Assembly: GCF_038637725.1 (NCBI RefSeq)
Contig: NZ_CP152052.1
Location: forward strand, 665,501 to 729,500
Direction of reading: 5' to 3'
Source of the DNA: Psychrobacillus sp. FSL H8-0483
Lineage (GTDB): Bacteria > Bacillota > Bacilli > Bacillales_A > Planococcaceae
Length of the DNA stretch: 64,000 nucleotides
Shown in pieces: positions 6,386 through 61,540 of this stretch. Each line of letters starts with the position of its first letter. Position 1 is the stretch's first letter. The position numbers were made by a program, and so were the translations under genes. The notes beneath the pieces were generated by a model. That model worked only from the letters and a program-made list of their open reading frames with translations. It did not search any database and was not told where the DNA came from.

Positions 6386-6621
6386 ACTTTACATCTTTTT
6401 ACTAAACTTCTTTACTTCACAAACTACTAATATCTTTTAGCAAGTCAGAAAAGGAATTAAAAAACTAACGACTTGTATATCCAAGATAGACATGTTATTA
6501 TATTTAACGTAAGTTTATACATTTCTGCTACATATGCGATTGACATCAATCGGATCGTGTAAGGTATCAGTTTCATAACCAACTCTGTTCCAGATGGTTC
6601 AGGGCGAGAGGAGAGATAGAG

Positions 6622-27834: not shown

Positions 27835-27844
27835 TAATATATGT

Positions 27845-27881
27845 AAAGCACTATCCAAGTATACATGGATAGTGCTTTTTT
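27845..27881 (+). terminator. Intrinsic terminator after murAA
   Basis: AAAGCACTATCCA pairs with TGGATAGTGCTTT; a T-tract follows. Confidence 0.9.
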
Positions 27882-27913
27882 CAATTGCGTTAGGATAGAG
27901 GGAATGGTTGTGA

Positions 27914-28136
27914 CTGTTGTGTTTGCAATGAGATTGGTCTCGATTCCAGGTTAATTGGTTGTGGTTTGGGGATAGTTAGTCTCAATTAGACATTTATCGT
28001 TATTCATTTACATTTAACGCGTCTAAGTTTGCCACTTTGCAGTGTTTATCTAAAGATAAAGCTTAGAAAGAAATACGGTGTCGAATTTCCGAGTAAGTTG
28101 TGGTTTAGGTTGAATTGTTCTCGTTTAGCCATTTAC
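27914..28136 (-). repeat. 21-bp-period repeats downstream of the first NERD gene
   Basis: Units start at 27914, 27935, 27956 and 27977 (TGGTCTCG, TGGTTGTG, TAGTCTCA heads), exactly 21 bases apart. Two more degenerate units lie at about 28096 and 28116, the last overlapping the end of the ancestral NERD reading frame. Read on the NERD coding strand the shared core is CGAGACCA, as in the array at 29241-29944. The sequence between (27998-28095) shows no gene. Confidence 0.6.
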
Positions 28137-28260
28137 TTTCGAAAACAAAATGCTATATTTAGCGTTCCGAGATTGACCGGTCTTCATTAGCATCCTGTTT
28201 TTCAGAATTCTTGTTGCTTCATGTTTGTTATTTAATTTCAAAAATTGCTGGCATTCTTGT
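28125..28260 (-). pseudogene. Displaced C-terminal frame of the first NERD gene
   Basis: In a shifted frame on the minus strand, the DNA reads ECQQF, then NNKHEATRILKN, then TGQSRNAKYS, and stops at 28125. It aligns with the C-terminus of the intact paralogue at 59799 (QECRRF, QDKHDATRILKN, TGKSRKTEYT). One base appears lost near 28258 (AAC-AA-GAA against AAC-CAA-GAA), so the current protein ends early with NASNF. Either a recent frameshift or a sequencing error. Confidence 0.8.
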
Positions 28261-29083
28261 TAGTCATCGTATTTTTATAGATAAAGAAATAATCCTTCAA
28301 CGCTTGTTCGTAAGCCTTTTTGTGATAGATTTTACAGCATGGACAAAACCAATTATGACTTACCTTTCTCATGCCAATTAAACCACACTGGACGCATTCT
28401 ACTCCTTTTATAATGGATTCAGGTGATATAGAAAAGTGATTGCATATTGGGAAGGGAAGAAAATCATAATTAGAGTTTAGAATCCAGTCTTTGAGTTTAT
28501 CTAGATCTTCACTTGAAAGGAGAGGTTTGTCTATCTTGATTTTTCTTAAAAAAGATTTGATTTCTTTTCGTGACAAAACAACTGTATCGCTTGGAGAGGT
28601 TTTTATATAACTAGTGAACGCAAAGACAATGGCACTATAGATTGGCAAATGAATGTACTTGCCACGTAATAACTGGTTTAAGTGATATACGTATTCCTCT
28701 AGTTGAAGAACTGGGCTATCATATGTATTGATTTCGCCAGTTTCGAGTTTACGCACAAGCTGTAGGGGATTTGTTGTAAATGAAATTTCTCCTTTTATAT
28801 TTTTCACCTCAAATATAACCGCATAATACGGGGAAATTAATAATATATCCATTTGAAAAAGAGATTCTGTGTATAACGAAATATTGTGGAATACATAAAA
28901 TTTATACGGCAATTGTACTTGCTCCAACACTTTCATCACAACTTCTTCACCTAAATCACCTGCAACCTTTTGATGGTATTCATCTTGAATCCATTTAAGC
29001 TTTGGATGCTTCCTTGGCAGACGTTTATACAGTGCTTTTAGTGCTTCTACATATAGAGTAGTCGAATATTTTTTTGCTATCAT
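28238..29083 (-). CDS. NERD-domain protein with C-terminal zinc ribbon (frameshifted end)
   Basis: This 281-aa product as read. Residues about 30-150 form a NERD (nuclease-related) domain with AGDLGEEVV, FQMDILLIS and AVIFEVKN, the D...E-x-K pattern of restriction-endonuclease-like folds. A C-terminal ribbon has CVQC and CPCC pairs. The activity of such proteins is unproven. ATG 29083 follows GAGGTGAT; a TTG one codon earlier is possible. It is strongly similar to the 59.8-kb gene along its length. It interrupts the usual murAA-spoIID order and is flanked on both sides by 21-bp repeats. The last 43 codons are out of frame. Confidence 0.85.
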   Translation of the reverse strand: MIAKKYSTTLYVEALKALYKRLPRKHPKLKWIQDEYHQKVAGDLGEEVVMKVLEQVQLPYKFYVFHNISLYTESLFQMDILLISPYYAVIFEVKNIKGEISFTTNPLQLVRKLETGEINTYDSPVLQLEEYVYHLNQLLRGKYIHLPIYSAIVFAFTSYIKTSPSDTVVLSRKEIKSFLRKIKIDKPLLSSEDLDKLKDWILNSNYDFLPFPICNHFSISPESIIKGVECVQCGLIGMRKVSHNWFCPCCKIYHKKAYEQALKDYFFIYKNTMTNKNASNF

Positions 29084-29240
29084 CAAATCACCTCGAAGCT
29101 AGAATATCACAATAGTATTAGTTTAATAAAACGATGAAAATGCGATTTTCATAAGGTAGATTGCGTAAAAATGATGGGAAAATTGAATTCTGATCCTTAT
29201 TTATGCTTCAAAATTCAATTTTGGCATATTAAAATATATT

Positions 29241-29944
29241 TGGTCTCGCTTTGGGATGAAATGGTCTCGGTTAATCGTCATTTGATCTCGGTTAGTAGCC
29301 AATTGGTTGTGGTTACATACATATTGGTCTCGTTAAGCCATATAACGTTATTTACTGTGAAATATTACCTCTAGAAGCTTATGGAATGTATTTAAAATAT
29401 ATTTAGTCTCGCTTTGGGATGAAATGGTCTCGGTTAGTCGTCATTTGATCTGAGTTAGAAGTCAATTGGTTGTGGTTACATACATATTGGTCTCGTTAAG
29501 CCATATAACGTTATTTATTGTGAAATATTACCTCTAGAAGCTCTTGGAATGTATTTAAAATATATTTGGTCTCGCTTTGGGATGAAATGGTCTCGGTTAG
29601 TCGTCATTTGATCTCGGTTAGAAGCCAATTGGTTGTGGTTACATACATATTGATCTCGTTAAGCCATATAACGTTATTTATTGTGAAATATTACCTCTAG
29701 AAGCTCATGGAATGTATTTAAATTATAATTGGTCTCGCTTTGGGATGAAATGATCTCGGTTAGAAGCCAATTGGTTGTGGTTACATACATATTGGTCTCG
29801 TTAAGCCATATACCGTTATTTATTGTAAAATAAGGCCTCTAGAAGCTCATGGATGAACGTATTTAAAATATAATTGGTATTGCTTTGGAGTAAAATGGTC
29901 TCGGTTAACAGTCAATTCCTCTCGGTTCCCTAACCAATTCTCCT
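29241..29944 (-). repeat. Tandem 163-bp super-repeats built of 21-bp units
   Basis: Super-repeats start at 29241, 29404, 29567 and 29730 (exactly 163 bp apart) and a partial fifth starts at 29875. The fourth lacks one 21-bp unit. Each full repeat opens with five 21-bp units (in repeat 1 at 29241, 29262, 29283, 29304, 29325) headed TGGTCTCG or TGGTTGTG, followed by about 58 bp of AT-rich spacer containing CCTCTAGAAGCTCATGGAATG. On the NERD coding strand the core reads AAC-CGAGACCA. There is no convincing ORF. The whole 29084-30024 interval is gene-free. Confidence 0.85.
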
Positions 29945-29989
29945 AAACTACTTCCAACAGAAAAATTCTATTAATTCAAAACTACTTAC

Positions 29990-30018
29990 TCATTAGAATC
30001 TATTTGCTAGCATATAGT
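29990..30018 (+). promoter_or_regulatory. Candidate sigmaE promoter of spoIID
   Basis: TCATTAG (29990-29996), 14-base spacer, CATATAGT (30011-30018). The -10 fits CATACANT with one mismatch; the -35 fits only in part. The start site would fall at or near the ATG, implying an almost leaderless message. spoIID is a sigmaE gene in B. subtilis. Confidence 0.4.
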
Positions 30019-36776: not shown

Positions 36777-37151
36777 CTTTCATTTTCCAAATCCATTTCG
36801 ATTTTCTTGAGCGTTGTGGGTACGAAACGGAGGCCTGCACGATGCAGGTCACACATTCGTTGCGAAATGTTCTTTTATTTTGCGATGAGCTTTGCGCAGG
36901 AGCACCACGATGTCGCGTACTTAGACTGTGCTCCTTTAAATATCCACAACGATGATCGAAAATAGTGTATCAGGAAGTGAGGCAGTTACTTCCTGATACA
37001 CTTAGCCCTCGGTAACGATGTAGTAGTGATTATTTCGTCCAAAACGAACCAAAAACGTACAAGTGCAAAATCGACTCTATCTATCATACTGTGATGATAG
37101 AAGAAAATTCTGACCAAAGCACTCCGGAAACGATGAAGAAAAAATTGATGC
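36777..37151 (+). other. Gene-free spacer with a repeat fragment and a palindrome
   Basis: There is no convincing gene. It holds a GAGCTTTGCGCAGGAG string (about 36881-36900) related to 1332-1347, and a 14-bp inverted repeat GTGTATCAGGAAGT/ACTTCCTGATACAC (36965-37001) with no T-tract. The rest is unremarkable. Confidence 0.5.
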
Positions 37152-58509: not shown

Positions 58510-58547
58510 AAGAAACATACTTGAATTAAAGCGCTCAGAGAACCGCT

Positions 58548-58623
58548 ATTCACACCCAAGGACCTGCTAACTCAGCAGGTCCTTTATTCACACCCAAGGA
58601 CCTGCTAACTCAGCAGGTCCTTT
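58548..58623 (+). terminator. Tandemly duplicated terminator after argD
   Basis: A 38-bp unit (58548-58585 and 58586-58623) is repeated perfectly; each holds AAGGACCTGCT-AACTC-AGCAGGTCCTT followed by TATT. Two successive hairpins should give tight termination. The rest of 58510-58824 shows no gene. Confidence 0.85.
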
Positions 58624-58824
58624 ATTCATGCTACAAATATATGGCTATACGAGAGCTCCAGTGGCTCATCCAAAAGCCCCTAAAATGTTTCTCGTCGCCT
58701 CACTAAAAACCCTTCCCCCACCCATGCATAAATATGGTACACTTTAGGGAAAATACACTATTATTTTCCTTATATTAAAGCATTCAATAGGAAAGTCCAA
58801 TCACTTAGGAAATGGGGTAAACGC

Positions 58825-59798: not shown

Positions 59799-60752
59799 TT
59801 GATAGCTAAATCATTTGCAAAATCACTCCATGCAGATGCACTTACAGCACTATCTAAACGCCTGCGCAAATCGCATCCCAACTACGCATACATCCGTGAC
59901 GAGCTGATGCAAAAAATCGCTGGTGATCTTGGCGAAGAAGTAGTCATGAAAGAACTAGAAAATTTAAAATTACCCCACGAATTTTTTATTTTTCACAACC
60001 TCAGTCTATACTCTGAAAACAGTTTTCAAATGGACATCCTGTTAATTTCACCCTATTTTGCGGTAATACTAGAAGTAAAAAACATCTCAGGGGAAATAGA
60101 AATTCTCACTAATCCCAGCATACTCGTAAGAACAAAACCTAACGGAGAAAAAAACACTTATAAAAGCCCCATCCCCCAACTCGAAGAATACATCTACCAA
60201 CTATCCCAAATCTTTAAACGTCACAAAATTAACCTGCCCATTTATGGCGCCGTTACATTCGCCTTCGCAAGGTCCTATGTAAAGTCGGCTCCAACAGAGA
60301 CCGTTTTTCTATTAACCAATGAAGTGCGTAAGTTCATAAGGGGAATAAAAACAACAAAGCCACTCCTATCAGAGGATCAACTCGAAAAATTAAAAAACTG
60401 GATCTTAAATAATAATAAAGAATATAACTCTTTCCCGTTAAGTAAGCATTACTCCATAAACCCATTAGATATCATCACAGGAGTAGAATGTCCAACATGT
60501 ACATTTATCGGAATGAAAAAAGTGATCAGAAACTGGACCTGTCCTAAATGTAGAAACTTTAGCAAACTAGCACACGAGCAAACAATAAAAGACTACTTTC
60601 TAATATACAAAGAAACCATTAACAACCAAGAATGCCGCAGATTCTTTCATCTGCAAGACAAACACGATGCCACCCGAATACTAAAAAACGCTAACCTAAT
60701 AGTAACTGGTAAATCCAGAAAAACAGAATACACAATGAACCTACTAAAATGA
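59799..60752 (+). CDS. NERD-domain protein with C-terminal zinc ribbon (intact paralogue)
   Basis: This 317-aa protein has a NERD domain at about residues 30-150 (AGDLGEEVVMKEL, FQMDILLIS, AVILEVKN), carrying the Asp and Glu-x-Lys pattern of PD-(D/E)XK-like folds; a zinc ribbon with CPTC and CPKC (about 230-255); and a conserved C-terminal helix (KHDATRILKNANLI). It is strongly similar to the gene at 28.2-29.1 kb. TTG start after CGAGGTGAT, the same ribosome site as its paralogue. A terminator and a 21-bp-period array follow. Nuclease activity is not established for this family. Confidence 0.87.
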   Translation: MIAKSFAKSLHADALTALSKRLRKSHPNYAYIRDELMQKIAGDLGEEVVMKELENLKLPHEFFIFHNLSLYSENSFQMDILLISPYFAVILEVKNISGEIEILTNPSILVRTKPNGEKNTYKSPIPQLEEYIYQLSQIFKRHKINLPIYGAVTFAFARSYVKSAPTETVFLLTNEVRKFIRGIKTTKPLLSEDQLEKLKNWILNNNKEYNSFPLSKHYSINPLDIITGVECPTCTFIGMKKVIRNWTCPKCRNFSKLAHEQTIKDYFLIYKETINNQECRRFFHLQDKHDATRILKNANLIVTGKSRKTEYTMNLLK

Positions 60753-60754
60753 AT

Positions 60755-60787
60755 AAAAGCTCTTTGCCAAGGCAATGAGCTTTTTTT
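60755..60787 (+). terminator. Intrinsic terminator after the second NERD gene
   Basis: AAAGCTC-T-TTGCC-AA-GGCAA-T-GAGCTTT with one T-T mismatch, followed by seven T residues. Confidence 0.85.
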
Positions 60788-60789
60788 AT

Positions 60790-61540
60790 GTCAAAATGTT
60801 CCTAGTAAATGTCTCGATAAGACAAATATTACCATCAATGAGACCAACTATACATCGAACCAAAAGGAAGCTCTTTGCATCCGCAAAGAGCAATTTCCAA
60901 GGCAAAATGTACCCAGTAAAATGGGTGAACGAGACAGACCACACCGTCAACACGACCAACTACACATCGAACGCGACAAACAACACCCCGAACACGACAA
61001 ACCACCATCCCAAAGCGACAAACCCACAAATCGAAGCTTTTCGCCTCTGCGAAAAGCCACATCCAACCAAAAGGAAGCTCTTTGCATTCGCAAAGAGCAA
61101 TTTCCAAGCCAAAATGTTCCCAGTAAATGGCTGAACGAGACAGACCACACCGTCAACACGACCAACTACACATCGAACGCGACAAACAACATCCCGAACA
61201 CGACAAACCACCAGCCCAAAGCGACAAACCCACAAGTCGAAGCTTTTCGCCCCAGCGAAAAGCCACATCCAACCAAAAGGAAGCTCTTTGCATCCGCAAA
61301 GAGCAATTTCCATGCCGAAATGTTCCCAGTAATTGGCTGAACGAGACAGACCACACCGTGAACACGACAAACAACACCTCGAACACGACAAACAACACAT
61401 CGAACACGACCAACTACACATCGAACACGACAAACAACACCCCGAACACGACAAACCACCCGCCCAAAGCGACAAACCACCAACACAACCCGCTGAACCC
61501 AACAAAAAAAGCCCTCCGCCTAAGCGAAAAGCCCAAATAA
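60790..61540 (+). repeat. Tandem ~207-bp super-repeats built of 21-bp units and hairpins
   Basis: Super-repeats begin (at CAAAATGTTCC) near 60903, 61110 and 61316, with a partial copy at 60792. Each has five or more 21-bp units: in copy 1 at 60927, 60948, 60969, 60990, 61011; in copy 2 from 61133; in copy 3 eight unit positions from 61339 (the eighth degenerate). The unit is GAACACGACAAACAACACCTC-like. Between units lie two perfect hairpins, GCTTTTCGC/GCGAAAAGC and GCTCTTTGC/GCAAAGAGC, each with a 4-base loop. Several frames stay open because the period is a multiple of three; no start site or conserved protein supports a gene. Confidence 0.85.

Follow-up and report, generated by a model that had tools for sequence, protein, structure and literature searches.

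Genes of a protein family that joins a NERD domain, a zinc ribbon and a winged helix-turn-helix (HTH) are accompanied, in Psychrobacillus and its relatives, by arrays of direct repeats in steps of 21 bp, with a core that varies between genes. The DNA under study is a stretch of 64,000 nucleotides of Psychrobacillus sp. FSL H8-0483 (NZ_CP152052.1, positions 665,501 to 729,500; "the window" below), in which an interpretation made from the letters only, here called the sequence-only reading, had described such an array around one NERD gene between murAA and spoIID. A NERD gene with an array is indeed present there, but the window holds a second gene and array of the same kind at about 59799-61490, and the locus can no longer be taken for an isolated oddity. 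As the best explanation we propose a dispersed protein-DNA system, of which the locus between murAA and spoIID would be a decayed copy; taken as a whole, with a guessed copying of arrays included, we give this explanation about an even chance of being right. Genomes and loci carry our own G and L numbers.

We gathered 157 loci (those of the genus search are part of the matches listed). There were 166 matching frames, 148 of them full length, and 129 distinct ones were left once 19 with identical last 250 residues had been removed; 18 partial rows, that is broken or cut genes, among them the gene at 28238-29086 of the window, stand outside the counts. One can notice in passing that the family genes at L018, L022, L025, L038 and L107 are split by a single in-frame stop, both halves being recognisable. 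At a lag of 21 bp (plus or minus 1), at least three phased links were found at 123 of the 129 distinct full-length loci and at least four at 117, against 9-42 loci for control lags (the 42 belong to lags 17-19, which adjoin 21) and 3 for shuffled flanks. This means that the arrays occur with NERD genes far above chance and that the 21 bp phase is retained in relatives; on both points the sequence-only reading is supported. In another genus of the same family all 21 distinct new loci carried a phased array, with 6 of 21 at control lags; this held-out set is what remained of 30 loci after we took out 7 that the training set already contained, a near copy (1) and a gene not of full length (1), and five of its 21 proteins are 66-86% identical to a training protein. 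In three Sporosarcina genomes the phased pairs of TCGGTGGTAA numbered 5, 39 and 25, each time spread over several contigs, where the control gave 0.

The arrays lie on both sides of the gene at 21 loci, only upstream at 32 and only downstream at 70, and at the 21 two-sided loci one core is found on both sides in the orientation of the gene (arrays of opposite orientation are outside this count). When no phase filter was applied (n=1524), 1347 spacings fell at 18-22 bp and 117 at 38-43 bp, and half-turn spacings were 23 in all (12 at 9-12 bp and 11 at 29-34 bp). The mean pairwise identity of the units is 0.88 in the core and 0.49 in the spacer. Passive tandem repeats, produced by replication slippage independently of the NERD protein, would account for the super-repeats of 163 and 206 bp in the window, which amount to plain tandem duplication; however, the step stays at exactly 21 bp despite unlike spacers, and the gene-specific cores covary with the recognition helix (see below), which makes slippage hardly credible. 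Coding heptad repeats were also set aside: there are steps of 19, 20 and 18 bp, and TAA is contained in many cores.

The sequence-only reading had proposed a search for GACMAA-like repeats in relatives, but the core is not a single one. The 4.14-Mb source genome (G000) has seven NERD matches, six of which belong to the family; the seventh protein (L001) is like the family in its NERD domain and differs from it, as an example of other NERD proteins, in having neither the winged helix nor a phased array. The best period of all six family loci is a lag of 21 or 42, and there is one core per gene, namely ACRCGACMAAC, CCGAGACCA, AATCGGATGGTT, TTGGAAGAATA, CGCAAYATT and AATCGGATAATA. At L049 and several other loci we also observed that cores of different clades fit a loose CG-N4-TAA on the gene strand, as if they came from one ancestral site.

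In both window proteins NERD (PF08378; 62.6 and 64.5 bits, where 22.1 is the cut-off) is the only significant Pfam match. The PD-(D/E)XK residues E47, D80, E93 and K95 are kept in 129 of 129 proteins and the zinc cysteines in 128-129. The second window protein gave an AlphaFold2 model of high predicted local distance difference test score (pLDDT 96.4), the structural neighbours of which (Foldseek, VIA-align) are PD-(D/E)XK-like, with alignments mainly over residues 4-190, i.e. outside the winged helix; a search by sequence for a solved structure of a relative found none (best E 0.55).

The similarity of cores follows the winged helix more closely than the NERD part (partial correlation 0.18 versus 0.076, Mantel p 0.002). 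The strongest covariation with the core among 285 columns falls on model columns 292, 289 and 288, that is residues 293, 290 and 289, at the start of the recognition helix (289-298). In a comparison of 53 cores, which include a few chance words (L007 and L139, for example), a C follows GCAA or GAGA in 11 of the 12 with Lys at column 288 and in 1 of the 41 with other residues; the single Lys exception, L036, reads GAGAGCAACC, the finder having stopped at GAGA. Proteins with an identical triplet at columns 288/289/292 have more similar cores even below 50% identity, and only 3 of 2850 random triplets equal that. Among the held-out proteins, those with RHK had CGCTC in 4 of 5 cases, three of these four being close relatives. 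The exact 21 bp phasing and this covariation of protein and core support the proposal of the sequence-only reading that the arrays are likely sites for a cooperatively binding protein.

We then turn to arrays elsewhere in the source genome, the scans covering 2.45 Mb (59%). A de novo scan gave 44 arrays at lags of 20-22, of which 33 were outside open reading frames (ORFs); at control lags of 25, 28 and 17 there were 8, 6 and 9 arrays, with 1, 0 and 0 outside ORFs. When the six cores were used as queries, 37 arrays turned up apart from those beside their own parent gene. Over the first 864 kb, shuffled cores yielded 0-3 three-unit arrays and the real ones 37 (parents and overlapping rows counted). 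The median distance of the 37 dispersed arrays to their own parent is 172 kb, against 744 kb when labels are shuffled (p 1.5e-4). For one core the exact pair CGCAAYAT...CGCAANAT could be followed through the whole genome: of its 23 occurrences 21 are at 977-1070 kb and 2 at 1469 kb, the parent being at 978 kb, and the reversed pattern has 0. The NERD link, according to the sequence-only reading, should fall if arrays were equally frequent away from NERD genes. Distant arrays do occur, but since their cores are those of NERD genes in this genome, near which they also lie, the link is reshaped and not refuted.

Arrays of the CGAGACC family have in common an AT-rich leader ending in ATGGCTTA, and a CTC...GAG inverted repeat often comes after the array (G000:C1 590-650 kb and 897 kb). 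More generally, same-core arrays have a leader in common, and two neighbouring arrays also have one spacer (by eye); such common leaders and spacers fit copying.

Twenty-eight of the 29 clear dispersed arrays are intergenic, 15 between convergent genes, 13 between co-directional ones and 0 between divergent ones (P 0.00025 and 0.001 by intergenic length). Convergent regions are thus enriched (P 0.00025), and the median distance to the flanking 3' end is 87 bp. Both figures would suit a transcription-related element, in which arrays behind genes serve as roadblocks, terminators or supercoil sinks bound by the NERD proteins. However, such a role leaves the nuclease, the gene-specific cores and the territories unexplained, and promoter avoidance alone would yield equal placing, so that we regard it as highly improbable. 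A replication-strand signal was set aside: 20 of the 37 dispersed arrays are co-directional with replication, which is no bias.

Orthologous sites were compared in 19 Psychrobacillus genomes. It is true in our genome that gene and array interrupt the conserved murAA-spoIID order, as had been claimed; across the 19, however, a NERD gene stands there in only 7 and a remnant in 1, and in 11 there is a gap of 232-962 bp. In such gaps some species carry arrays with the core of another resident NERD gene (ATACGAGAG in G015 and G001, GCGACAAACC in G017). A VOC gene is present in 19 of 19 genomes and the cores of its flanking arrays vary (CGAGACC in G000, AGCAACCA in G008 and G003, GACAAACC in G017, GGTGATAA in G012). 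Resident cores gave 4.89 phased units at the VOC site versus 1.26 for cores of other genomes (19 loci, p 5e-5), and 5.55 versus 0.37 at the spoIID site (11 loci, p 0.0012). Hence, at orthologous sites, the core of the array tends to follow the resident protein. In 18 of the 19 genomes one orthologue shares a contig with the VOC gene, at a distance of 30-63 kb; by this constant place it is inherited vertically while its core drifts.

The protein is found in 236 of 261 genomes of an order sample, which consists of one family. In a phylum sample of 119 genomes full-length matches are limited to the source genome, with the NERD part in five others; further Bacilli with relatives include Neobacillus, Metabacillus, Fictibacillus and Halobacillus. 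Searches of phages and of viral contigs (one query protein each) gave no relative, and plasmids gave one weak match to one query protein, covering 52% of it; a phage or plasmid element was set aside on these grounds. The same absence from phages and viral contigs bears on defence or self-recognition, in which the nuclease, parked on arrays that store it or mark self, would act on incoming or damaged DNA. Wherever they were examined, in the window, the neighbours are housekeeping genes, and for the three proteins tested no defence family fits (best PADLOC E 0.0058; NCBIfam MAD6 at 27.2 bits, the cut-off being 460). We consider this role quite improbable.

The main rival to our explanation is a role in chromosome organisation: region-specific nucleoid proteins would bridge or mark arrays in their own territory, the nuclease fold being used rarely, or for topology or repair. 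The territories around each parent gene agree with this, as do the near-universal presence in the family, the fixed place of one orthologue near the VOC gene and the avoidance of divergent regions (15 convergent, 13 co-directional, 0 divergent). On the other hand, cores drift fast between species, arrays are gained and lost at a single site, several genes are broken, the catalytic residues are invariant and replication direction leaves no bias. On balance we think this role unlikely.

The dispersed protein-DNA system that we favour can be described as follows. Each NERD-zinc-ribbon-winged-HTH protein would read its own core of 8-10 bp through the recognition helix in the winged helix at its C-terminus; cores repeated every 21 bp, i.e. 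two helical turns, would let copies of the protein bind next to each other on the same DNA face. Arrays of this kind are found next to the gene and also in other intergenic places, most of which belong to the same chromosomal neighbourhood and come just behind gene ends. From there on we are guessing: the nuclease bound to an array may nick or cut it, repair may duplicate units and copy arrays into nearby intergenic sites, and gene and arrays may in this way keep each other going, as is supposed of RAYT genes and REPINs. Granted this explanation, it is very probable that each protein binds its cognate arrays, and we would infer one protein or dimer per unit, cooperative binding on a single face and nuclease activity. 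That self-perpetuation is the main reason for the arrays seems, on the same assumption, nearly but not quite an even bet. A broader statement, that a genome may keep several nucleases of the same family, each with its DNA address in the recognition helix and its own territory marked by phased arrays that are rewritten as the helix changes, is put forward tentatively, with somewhat more doubt than belief.

A number of results weigh against the system as just described. No array was found at 6 of the 129 loci (L028, L047, L082, L093, L144, L154), 8 of the 37 dispersed arrays match weakly (<0.85), some of them probably being spurious, and the held-out set contained no protein with Lys at column 288. 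At least three units with a resident core were present at 14 of 19 VOC loci and at only 3 of 11 spoIID loci. G009 has almost no array at the VOC site; the VOC arrays of G002 and G011 are GGTCATAA or GGTGATAA-like and lack an intact resident match; at spoIID, G006 carries GCAAGTAA, a core absent from the three resident genes analysed; the spoIID array of G016 is fitted better by the matrix of another genome than by its own; in G002 and G012 the VOC site lacks a GCAAC array, although the orthologue there has Lys at column 288. We saw no insertion that had clean ends or a target duplication, so that dispersal is deduced from shared leaders only. Finally, the source genome contains array families of CAGCATAAC and of TGACCGGATA and no NERD gene with either core.

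As to where these families lie, CAGCATAAC arrays are found between ordinary genes at L169:5480-5765 (G000 about 965.5 kb), L161 and L170, and were perhaps left by a parent gene now lost; TATCCGGTCA (TGACCGGATA) arrays run in 21-bp steps at L191:680-2100 (G000 about 3660.7-3662 kb), likewise with no parent gene.

The features of the window are collected in Table 1. The first NERD gene, judging from its sequence, is a decaying, frameshifted copy, because its alignment stops at residue 282, where the paralogues continue into the winged helix, and because matching residues lie downstream in another frame, which reads QQFLKLNNKHEATRILKN... and resembles, by eye, FFHLQDKHDATRILKN of the second window gene. 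Upstream of it, minus-strand CGAGACC-like cores indeed follow each other in steps of 21 from about 29927 to 29229, within the four super-repeats and the partial one reported there. Tandem Repeats Finder (TRF) gave a period of 163 bp at 29229-29763 (3.3 copies, 95% matches) and one of 142 bp at 29609-29907, i.e. the 163-bp repeat minus one 21-bp unit. Arrays on both sides of this gene, as the sequence-only reading had it, are thus real upstream; the downstream one is only short and decayed (units near 27983, 27962 and 27941, with scattered ones), three units being seen by eye where the k-mer finder detected none.

Table 1. Positions in the window of the two NERD genes, their arrays and the junction that houses the first of them
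Feature	Position	Strand	Evidence
Junction murAA-spoIID housing gene and arrays	27835..30003	.	comparison of 19 Psychrobacillus genomes
Downstream array, decayed to three units in 21-bp steps	27934..27990	-	reading by eye
Winged-helix remnant of the 28238-29086 gene, other reading frame	28123..28250	-	translation compared by eye
NERD-zinc-ribbon gene, C-terminally truncated by frameshift	28238..29086	-	Pfam PF08378 62.6 bits (cut-off 22.1); alignment
Phased array upstream of it, core CCGAGACCA; 163/142-bp super-repeats made of 21-bp units	29229..29927	-	TRF, k-mer finder, reading
Second NERD-zinc-ribbon-winged-HTH gene, full length	59799..60752	+	66.3 and 64.5 bits; alignment; AlphaFold2 pLDDT 96.4
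Phased array of second gene, core ACRCGACMAAC	60815..61490	+	TRF, k-mer finder

The array of the second gene, directly downstream of it, has 17 units by the k-mer finder, 14 of the 16 steps being 21 bp, and is built of 206-bp super-repeats with small hairpins in between (AGCTCTTTGCATCCGCAAAGAGC). Structured RNA was set aside as an account of the arrays: of two Rfam matches in the window neither is on an array, and one of six arrays folds better than chance (z of -0.10, -4.63, 2.58, 0.50, 0.99 and -0.05). The Rfam matches themselves are a Bacillaceae-1 RNA at 36834-36940 (-) and an L31 leader at 6583-6613 (+). Apart from these, a tandem 38-bp repeat with a terminator-like hairpin (AAGGACCTGCTAACTCAGCAGGTCCTT) lies at 58547-58628.

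Our search of the open-access literature found no paper joining NERD proteins with repeats and no described element alike, in agreement with the sequence-only reading. By this search, the DNA element that accompanies the protein family is undescribed. CRISPR units are far longer than cores of 8-10 bp with spacers of about 11 bp, and a CRISPR-like array was set aside, the units being far too short (no search was aimed at cas genes). Iterons and plasmid centromeres (Rep, ParR, StbA) come closer: there, phased direct repeats with a system-specific core adjoin the gene of a protein that binds side by side. Our arrays are similar in being phased direct repeats beside the gene for a predicted DNA-binding protein, but they are chromosomal, many per genome and with dispersed copies, and the protein has a nuclease fold and no replication or partition domain in Pfam. 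The TAACTGA intergenic direct repeats of Beggiatoaceae are one heptamer shared by several phyla, usually placed directly before start codons and with no cognate gene (PMC4679880). Like our arrays, they form intergenic sets of direct repeats of which a genome has many, whereas the cores here vary between genes and follow the protein helix.

The nearest likeness is with the REPIN-RAYT systems, in which repeats reportedly flank a single nuclease-like gene and are also dispersed extragenically, each gene having its own repeat with which it co-evolves (PMC3116915, PMC8266576). Cognate, gene-specific repeats beside the NERD gene and dispersed in extragenic space correspond to this picture. The enzyme is different: a NERD PD-(D/E)XK fold with a winged helix, where RAYT is a HuH transposase, and the Pfam search of the window proteins, significant for NERD only, showed no HuH/Y1 transposase domain. 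The repeats are different as well, being direct, phased and without hairpin, while REPs are palindromes that fold as single strands. Moreover, our arrays cluster near their parent (median distance 172 kb, with shuffled labels 744 kb; p 1.5e-4), and REPIN doublets are said to be randomly distributed in extragenic space (PMC3116915). Our best guess is that the NERD system works like REPIN-RAYT without belonging there. If the broader statement on DNA addresses holds, these proteins and arrays would constitute a naturally occurring set of orthogonal DNA-addressing systems programmed by arrays, and a new class of elements that perpetuate themselves or mark the chromosome. Protein and element lend themselves to comparison between species, so that a winged-helix recognition code can be read from genomes. 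The REPIN-RAYT puzzle, namely the lasting association of a gene with dispersed repeats, gains here a second case made from quite different components.
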